Below, one piece after another: positions 32,886 to 33,969 of a DNA stretch of 64,000 nucleotides. A program made the position numbers and the translations under genes. The stretch is from Flavobacteriales bacterium (GTDB lineage: Bacteria; Bacteroidota; Bacteroidia; Flavobacteriales_F; PHOS-HE28), in assembly GCA_019638085.1 (NCBI GenBank), contig JAHBUL010000012.1, positions 1 through 64,000 of the forward strand, read 5' to 3'. Within the stretch, counting starts at the first letter, position 1. Each line of letters begins with the position of its first letter. The notes below the pieces were generated by a model. The model had not been told where the DNA came from. It ran no database searches and saw nothing but the letters and a program-made list of their open reading frames with translations.

Positions 32886-32921
32886 TCACGGCACGTATTA
32901 TTGCGGAATAACAAAGCGTTC

Positions 32922-33458
32922 ATGGAACTCTACGACATCGGCATCGGCGCACGTGTGAAGCACCCATCGTTGGGCTTGGGAGTGGTCTACAATATCGACC
33001 CAAGCTCCATTCACATCTTCTTCCGCGAGCACGGCGAGAAGCCCATCGCCCGTTCTTTCGAGGACCTGGTGGTGATCGCTCCCGGCGTGGAGGTGGAACC
33101 GCCGGAACTCGACATTGAAAGCGTGAAGGACGCACTGCGCGAAGTGCTTGACGAGGACAACAGCCTGAAGAAACCGGTGCCTCTGGCGCGTCGCTGGCAG
33201 AAGGGTATGCTGGAAATGAAGTCCGCCGATCCCAGCCTGAAAAGCAAGGAGGTCCCCATCGAGGATTTCTTCCACAAGATCGTGATGATGCGCGACCGTT
33301 TCCGTGTGCTGGAACAGCGGATCAACTCCCACACAGGCCTGAGCGATCAGGATAAAGTGGAGTTGCAGCAGTACATCACCCGATGCTATGGCAGCCTCAC
33401 CACCTTCAATATTCTCTTCGAGGACAAAGAGGACCACTTTGTGGGACAGAAGGGATAG
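32922..33458 (+). CDS. Unknown protein with Tudor-like N-terminus
   Basis: 178 residues, cytoplasmic (no signal or membrane segment). The first 45 residues (IGARVKHPSLGLGVVYNID, then IHIFFREHGEKPIARSF) resemble the small SH3/Tudor-like beta barrel at the end of UvrD-type helicases. The rest is charged and helical (about 65-170), with IEDFFHKIVMMRDRFRVLEQRI and a long amphipathic helix. I do not recognise a named family. The ATG at 32922 is preferred over a TTG 21 bases upstream. It follows the peptidase by 36 bases and could be co-transcribed. Confidence 0.65.
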   Translation: MELYDIGIGARVKHPSLGLGVVYNIDPSSIHIFFREHGEKPIARSFEDLVVIAPGVEVEPPELDIESVKDALREVLDEDNSLKKPVPLARRWQKGMLEMKSADPSLKSKEVPIEDFFHKIVMMRDRFRVLEQRINSHTGLSDQDKVELQQYITRCYGSLTTFNILFEDKEDHFVGQKG

Positions 33459-33488: not shown

Positions 33489-33656
33489 TTGGAAAATGGT
33501 ACGGGTTACGAGTTGCTCCCGGCACAACCCGCAACCCGCAACCCGTGAACCCGTCAACCCGCAACCGGTCAACCCGTCAACCCGCAACCGGTAAACTCGT
33601 CAACCCGCAACCGGTCAACTCGTAACCCGCAACCGGTCAACTCGCCAACCCGCAAC
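33489..33656. repeat. Short-word tandem array (AACCCGCAACCGGTCAAC-type)
   Basis: About seven degenerate copies of a 20-25 base unit built from AACCCGCAACCGGT and CAACCCGT/CAACTCGT. The first unit (ACGGGTTACGAGTTG, about 33502-33516) is in the inverted orientation relative to the rest. It is non-coding and lies directly upstream of the promoter at 33659. Units abut without spacers. Confidence 0.75.
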
Positions 33657-33658
33657 AT

Positions 33659-33689
33659 TTTGCATTCCCACAGGATCGCATTACCTTCG
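33659..33689 (+). promoter_or_regulatory. Bacteroidota-type promoter (TTTG, 19 nt, TACCTTCG)
   Basis: TTTG at 33659-33662 and TACCTTCG at 33682-33689 with exactly 19 bases between them, the canonical -33/-7 arrangement. It lies about 280 bases upstream of queE and reads into the structured non-coding element. Confidence 0.65.
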
Positions 33690-33694
33690 ACCCA

Positions 33695-33925
33695 CTGACA
33701 CGTTCTTTCTCAGCCGTGCGCTGATCAACAGACAGCCCACATAGGCCATAGGTTCTCAAAACCAACATTTCTACCTCAGGGAGGGAAGATCCAAAGGGCA
33801 AGGGCGGGCCTCGCCACCTTCGGGTGGTATCCTTCGGGAACGTCGAGGATTACCGACCCCTTTCTGTCCCCCCCGCTCATGTGATCCATGGGTTTTTTGA
33901 ACTCGGTCCTGTGTGGGCTTTTTTT
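33695..33925 (+). ncRNA. Candidate structured non-coding RNA with intrinsic terminator
   Basis: Helices found by eye: UCAGC/GCUGA 33710-33714 with 33720-33724; an 11-bp closing helix 33735-33745 with 33908-33918 (one G-U); 33752-33763 with 33891-33902 (10 of 12 pairs); 33779-33786 with 33867-33874 (7 of 8); 33793-33798 with 33858-33863; 33809-33813 with 33844-33848. Two apical hairpins close with C(UUCG)G tetraloops (33814-33827 and 33830-33839). The closing helix runs straight into seven U (33919-33925), as in an intrinsic terminator. No convincing reading frame crosses it. tmRNA, RNase P RNA and SRP RNA signatures are absent. A multi-copy palindromic repeat is the main alternative. Confidence 0.55.
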
Positions 33926-33969
33926 GTCCTCCCGTGGACCAACCTTCCCCCGCTACATCCCTTCGTGCA

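Follow-up and report, generated by a model that had tools for sequence, protein, structure and literature searches.

The element between positions 33659 and 33925 of the window (the whole 64,000-nucleotide stretch of DNA that was analyzed) is, with a probability of about 0.92, the divergent 6S RNA gene of an uncultured Flavobacteriales genus; judged by its homologies, it belongs to a known class, 6S RNA, and not to a new RNA class. A first-pass annotation had proposed a structured RNA read from the plus strand, with a promoter and a terminator of its own, and offered two readings, a 6S-like regulator or a new sRNA class. The 6S-like reading turned out to be right, by homology and not by shape alone; the labels "undescribed" and "new sRNA class" are not supported, the RNA being homologous to the Rfam families RF01693 and RF01685. 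The predicted features are as follows, with the evidence for each in brackets; R1 denotes a covariance model built from homologs within the genus only.

33659-33662, plus strand: -33 element TTTG of a Bacteroidota-type promoter (sequence; TTTG or TTG-like in most, not all, relatives)
33682-33689, plus strand: -7 element TACCTTCG (TAnnTT(C/T/G)G in 29 of 29 complete genus homologs; the flanks diverge)
33701-33708, plus strand: boxA-like motif CGTTCTTT in the leader (conservation in the genus; match in the genome's own 16S leader)
33710-33724, plus strand: small leader hairpin directly 3' of the boxA-like motif (minimum-free-energy fold)
33734-33925, plus strand: predicted 6S RNA rod including the terminator (R1 model match, 216 bits)
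33734-33747, plus strand: closing helix P1, 5' strand (99.5% paired in 29 sequences; two-sided changes at 4 pairs)
33752-33763, plus strand: helix P2, 5' strand, with its inner part at 33758-33763; expected to template pRNA elongation (role inferred)
33764-33778, plus strand: central bubble, 5' strand (unpaired in the consensus; counterpart in Bacteroidales-1 and 6S-Flavo loci)
33779-33786, plus strand: helix P3, 5' strand, pairing with 33867-33874 (two-sided changes at 5 of 8 pairs)
33793-33798, plus strand: helix P4, 5' strand, pairing with 33858-33863 (two-sided changes at 4 of 6 pairs)
33803-33810, plus strand: GGCGGGCC at the apical junction (invariant in 29 sequences; also in the Bacteroidales-1 consensus)
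33847-33853, plus strand: GGATTAC opposite the junction (invariant in 29 sequences; also in the Bacteroidales-1 consensus)
33858-33863, plus strand: helix P4, 3' strand (as for its 5' strand)
33867-33874, plus strand: helix P3, 3' strand (as for its 5' strand)
33875-33893, plus strand: central bubble, 3' strand, with the hairpin GCUCAUG/CAUGGGU (hairpin 98% paired)
33891-33902, plus strand: helix P2, 3' strand (inner part 33891-33896; pair conservation)
33905-33919, plus strand: closing helix P1, 3' strand, also part of the terminator (pairing in 29 sequences; terminator scan)
33919-33925, plus strand: U7 tract of the intrinsic terminator (sequence; terminator scan)

The rod is 192 nt long and consists of nested helices (33734-33919) followed by seven U. 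The five nested helices described in the first-pass annotation, and the seven U abutting the closing helix, were borne out on re-counting: 33735-33745/33908-33918 is paired at 11 of 11 positions (10 Watson-Crick pairs and one G-U), 33752-33763/33891-33902 at 10 of 12, 33779-33786/33867-33874 at seven of eight (Watson-Crick), 33793-33798/33858-33863 at six of six, and 33809-33813/33844-33848 at five of five. The two apical hairpins with C(UUCG)G loops are likewise present in the window; their loops and lengths differ among relatives, so that they do not form part of the conserved core. This core comprises the two junction motifs, GGCGGGCC and GGATTAC, together with the strands flanking the central bubble, parts of which are invariant as well.

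Folding against shuffled controls came out better than chance, by a modest amount: the minimum free energy of positions 33690-33930 (241 nt) was -85.8 kcal/mol (z -2.08; seven of 200 shuffles folded as well), and that of the rod alone was -77.0 (z -2.9; four of 300 shuffles). Since these z values are modest and the fold of the antisense strand is just as stable (-80.3), thermodynamics alone is not decisive. Among 29 aligned homologs (alignment A1), 98.7% of pair cells are intact; 96-112 cells are changed on both sides, versus 28-34 in shuffled alignments, none of 500 shuffles reaching as high a count. The compensatory base changes that had been proposed as a test of the structure were thus found within the genus, at 15-17 of 40-41 pairs (15, or 17 if P2 is included), with far lower values also in the slid controls, and in 20 homologs from other families 39 of 41 pairs are compensated in an alignment fitted to the model. 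The structured RNA is accordingly judged to be real, and it is this comparative evidence that settles the point. The region is an imperfect palindrome, and its equally stable antisense fold would suit a mobile palindromic element or an inverted repeat acting at the DNA level; the likelihood of this reading is negligible, since the element has one copy in the genome and keeps its syntenic position across the genus, and combines compensatory changes with invariant unpaired motifs. By DNA similarity the element was detected in 35 of the 98 genomes searched, the source genome included, which corresponds to 35 of the 45 genomes of the genus; no match outside the genus was found among these 98.

The promoter can be read directly from the sequence, and re-counting upheld the exact TTTG-N19-TACCTTCG spacing reported in the first-pass annotation, with TTTG at 33659-33662, 19 nt, and TACCTTCG at 33682-33689. 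Covariation, together with the -7 consensus in all 29 complete relatives, strongly supports a structured RNA on the plus strand that has a promoter and a terminator of its own. The leader of the predicted gene is approximately 40 nt long; the sequence of its small hairpin (33710-33724) is kept in nearer relatives and replaced in more distant ones. A tandem array of 23-bp units (CAACCCGTCAACCCGCAACCGGT, 5.8 copies) occupies window positions 33525-33656 and ends three bases before the promoter TTTG; the closest relative (L002) has no 23-bp tandem units beside its promoter.

In nearly all loci of the genus the RNA lies between the gene of a 185-aa protein (window 32901-33458), which is conserved across the genus and has no Pfam match, and queE, which follows downstream on the same strand. 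The constancy of this downstream neighbor, with essentially all genus loci placing queE just behind the RNA in the same orientation, could suggest a cis-acting leader of queE, a gene of queuosine precursor synthesis, in the form of a riboswitch or attenuator (e.g., preQ1-related). The probability of such a leader is close to negligible: the closing stem and U tract end the transcript in all relatives, the Rfam scan yielded no riboswitch match, and homologs in other families reside beside zapA, rny or other genes, not beside queE.

At gathering thresholds, the Rfam scan found no match in the window; at relaxed thresholds, model RF01693 (Bacteroidales-1) matched positions 33734-33924 over all 179 model positions with 24.2 bits, and the window locus is the best match of this model in the 4-Mb genome. 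As RF01693 is currently curated, its gathering cut-off (60 bits) exceeds this score, and the window RNA is a homolog but not a member of the family as drawn. RF01685 (6S-Flavo; gathering cut-off 85) has no match in the genome even at an E value of 10. Two further matches are attributed to chance: a second RF01693 match in the same genome (contig C7; 22.1 bits, 113 nt), which lacks the middle of the model and has no apical junction, boxA or terminator, and a minus-strand suhB/mmgR match with 11.9 bits and an E value of 8.7.

The connection to both Rfam families was obtained with R1, which was used to search 247 genomes of the class and matched nine genus loci and six loci in other families. At the Bacteroidales-1 locus of genome G148, where RF01693 scores 183.9 bits, R1 gave 30.2 bits (genome-scale E value 1.1e-4); among the fetched loci it recovered seven of seven above-cut-off Bacteroidales-1 loci end to end, the six besides G148 with coextensive matches of 19.8-30.7 bits. 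As a caveat, R1 gives 17-26 bits on the antisense strand of its own loci, so that scores below approximately 27 bits were trusted only where the match coincided over its full length with an Rfam locus; a test independent of the genus is provided by RF01693 and RF01685 only. Over the same 247 genomes RF01685 found one above-cut-off locus (G204, 96.8 bits vs. 85), which R1 matches with 37.1 bits and which overlaps an RF01693 match, and loci in three further genomes (G074, G127, and G067) bridge both models. Since several loci match two of the models or all three, the sequence comparisons indicate that the window RNA, Bacteroidales-1, 6S-Flavo and the intermediates form one family; the window RNA scores below the curated cut-offs of both Rfam families, and its membership therefore rests on these intermediates. 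Its divergence (24 bits against a cut-off of 60) is also the reason why Rfam misses it.

The sub-threshold Rfam score, and gene neighbors that differ from those of the zapA-rny 6S loci, could instead be taken to mean that the RNA forms a structured sRNA class of its own, with mRNAs or proteins as targets, and that its likeness to Bacteroidales-1 reflects convergence on a rod shape. Such a class is very unlikely, given that R1 is coextensive with every above-threshold Bacteroidales-1 locus and with the above-threshold 6S-Flavo locus, that the likeness extends beyond shape to the shared motifs GGCGGGCC and GGATTAC, and that intermediates occur in other families. The window RNA has a full-length, collinear match to Bacteroidales-1, with which it shares the closing stem (AGCC...GGCU) with its U tract, the GGCGGGCC/GGATTAC junction, two apical hairpins, and P2 with the central bubble; it differs in its gene neighbors and in its longer leader with a boxA-like motif, which Bacteroidales loci lack. 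Such a motif does occur in the leaders of most 6S-Flavo-type loci; the difference there lies in the gene order, zapA-6S-rny compared to 185-aa gene-6S-queE in the genus studied here.

The features expected of a 6S RNA are found in the window RNA: it is a single-copy, noncoding RNA (within a range of approximately 150-230 nt) with its own terminator; it has a closing stem, a large central bubble and an apical stem, with covarying helices P1-P4 around 33764-33778/33875-33890; a hairpin in the 3' strand of the bubble competes with the closing-side helix; and reciprocal and bridging model matches link it to accepted 6S families. The E. coli 6S RNA gene, ssrS, has zapA as its neighbor, as do relatives of the window RNA; the two RNAs share the rod and a central bubble with a competing hairpin, and differ in the two apical hairpins and the boxA-like leader of the window RNA. 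Several 6S-Flavo-type relatives are located between zapA and rny; in the window genome these two genes are adjacent with no RNA between them (G000 C33, L189), which places the 6S gene at a different location in this genus. The 6S gene has moved either in this genus or in the other Bacteroidota families. The 6S identity of the family as a whole is based on the Rfam label of RF01693 ("6S-Bacteroidales RNA suggested"), on the naming of 6S-flavo as a 6S RNA by Weinberg et al. 2010 (PMC2864571), and on the 6S RNA of Bacteroides thetaiotaomicron, presumed to be of the same family, which was detected with its pRNAs by dRNA-seq (PMC7366714). This RNA, seen experimentally with pRNA and pRNA* (PMC7366714), comes from the same phylum and is the presumed orthologue through Bacteroidales-1; the window RNA is predicted from its sequence.

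By analogy with established 6S biology, the RNA most likely traps RNA polymerase, and synthesis of a pRNA would set the RNA free again. Within the genus, the inner six pairs of P2 are 97.7% intact (two-sided changes at two pairs) and the hairpin 33875-33881/33887-33893 is 98% paired; the two overlap at 33891-33893 and are consequently mutually exclusive. The counterpart of this hairpin in other families is 82.6% paired, with two-sided changes at six of seven pairs. In its P2 state the rod would mimic an open promoter and occupy the holoenzyme of RNA polymerase and the housekeeping sigma factor. When nucleotides return, the polymerase would start a short pRNA on the 5' strand of the bubble, probably near 33764-33775, and proceed toward 33752; pRNA synthesis would displace P2 and free 33891-33893, the 3' hairpin (33875-33893) would close, and the polymerase would be ejected.

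The first-pass annotation did not mention the boxA-like motif in the leader (33701-33708). Of the 29 complete homologs within the genus, 27 keep exact GTTCTTT there, and the remaining two read GTTCATT and GTTCTTA. CGTTCTTT recurs identically in the genome's own 16S leader (L153), where CGTTCTTTGA follows a TACATTTG promoter and appears again approximately 100 nt before the 16S gene; of nine other rRNA loci whose upstream sequence is long enough (one genome contributes two), eight carry GTTCTTTGA at approximately -100 to -140. Outside the genus, exact GTTCTTT occurs at most 110 nt upstream of the rod in 17 of 36 6S loci versus 1.6% of background windows, a difference whose nominal P value (2e-21) is only indicative because the loci are related. 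With variant bases allowed, the motif is present in 10 of 17 families, including one doubtful case (L046, GCTCTTT in a T-rich stretch); it is absent from typical Bacteroidales loci and several other families. Leaders with the GTTCTTT motif, spread over many Bacteroidota families, are those of the window RNA, the genome's own 16S gene (L153), and L041, L044, L045, L055, L066, L067, L155, L162 and L165-L171. Extended forms read CGTTCTTTAACATA, CGTTCTTTACATAA and CGCTCTTTACATA; the boxA of E. coli is TGCTCTTTAACA, which the first and last of these resemble. Their resemblance to the gamma-proteobacterial boxA consensus GYTCTTTAANA (PMC5725501) also leads to the reading of the motif as an rrn-type boxA.

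Within the genus, the distance of the motif to the promoter TA is nearly fixed (14-20 nt), while that to the rod ranges between 32 and 78 nt, a pattern that could point to a promoter-proximal DNA element common to strong promoters, such as an initiation-region or transcription-factor site. This alternative is possible but on balance unlikely: in zapA-rny-type loci the motif stands straight after the zapA stop codon with no recognizable TAnnTTTG before it, rRNA leaders carry it approximately 100-140 nt before 16S, and the extended forms are boxA-like. The sequence evidence gives somewhat better than even odds that CGTTCTTT is a boxA of the rrn type, through which NusB/NusE are loaded onto the polymerase during elongation; NusB is encoded in the genome. 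With the boxA of rrn operons (the NusB/NusE site) and of E. coli suhB (PMC5725501) it has the GTTCTTT core downstream of a promoter in common; the difference is that here it is on a 6S RNA gene and recognized by sequence and position only. The literature searched contained no report of a boxA on 6S RNA, and the presence of such a box in the 6S genes of many Bacteroidota does not seem to have been described.

The arrangement TAnnTTYG-N6-26-CGTTCTTT has three sites genome-wide, at this RNA, in the 16S leader and at L188; a control with the reversed pattern gave none in the genome. L188 (G000:C36:137425-137459, minus strand) precedes a gene predicted to be acyl-CoA reductase-like, has no RNA family match, and is possibly a chance occurrence. 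Approximately 430 to 290 bases before 16S, the genome's own 16S leader holds repeated modules of ACATTTG, GTTCTTTGAGCGCCCCG and a short hairpin, which suggests tandem rRNA promoters.

The 6S RNA assignment fills a gap, as Rfam finds no 6S RNA in this genome, and the alignment can be used to annotate 6S RNA in many Bacteroidota missed by current models. The part worth following is the predicted rrn-type boxA in the 6S leaders of this and many other Bacteroidota. Since the leader carries the same boxA-like signal as stands before rRNA genes, 6S RNA and rRNA may be controlled together; if the leader is functional, it would link a polymerase-parking regulator to rRNA-operon antitermination, and no coupling of rRNA control with global polymerase sequestration was found in the literature searched. 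A boxA just after the start site would load NusB/NusE, so that the polymerase would reach the end of this untranslated, highly structured RNA and 6S output would keep step with rRNA synthesis. The chances are barely above even that 6S genes in much of the Bacteroidota are rRNA-like units of this kind, in which boxA recruits NusB/NusE and ties 6S output to rRNA synthesis; if so, rRNA and 6S RNA would be the only clear clients of a promoter-boxA pair in this genome, going by the search for the promoter with exact CGTTCTTT.
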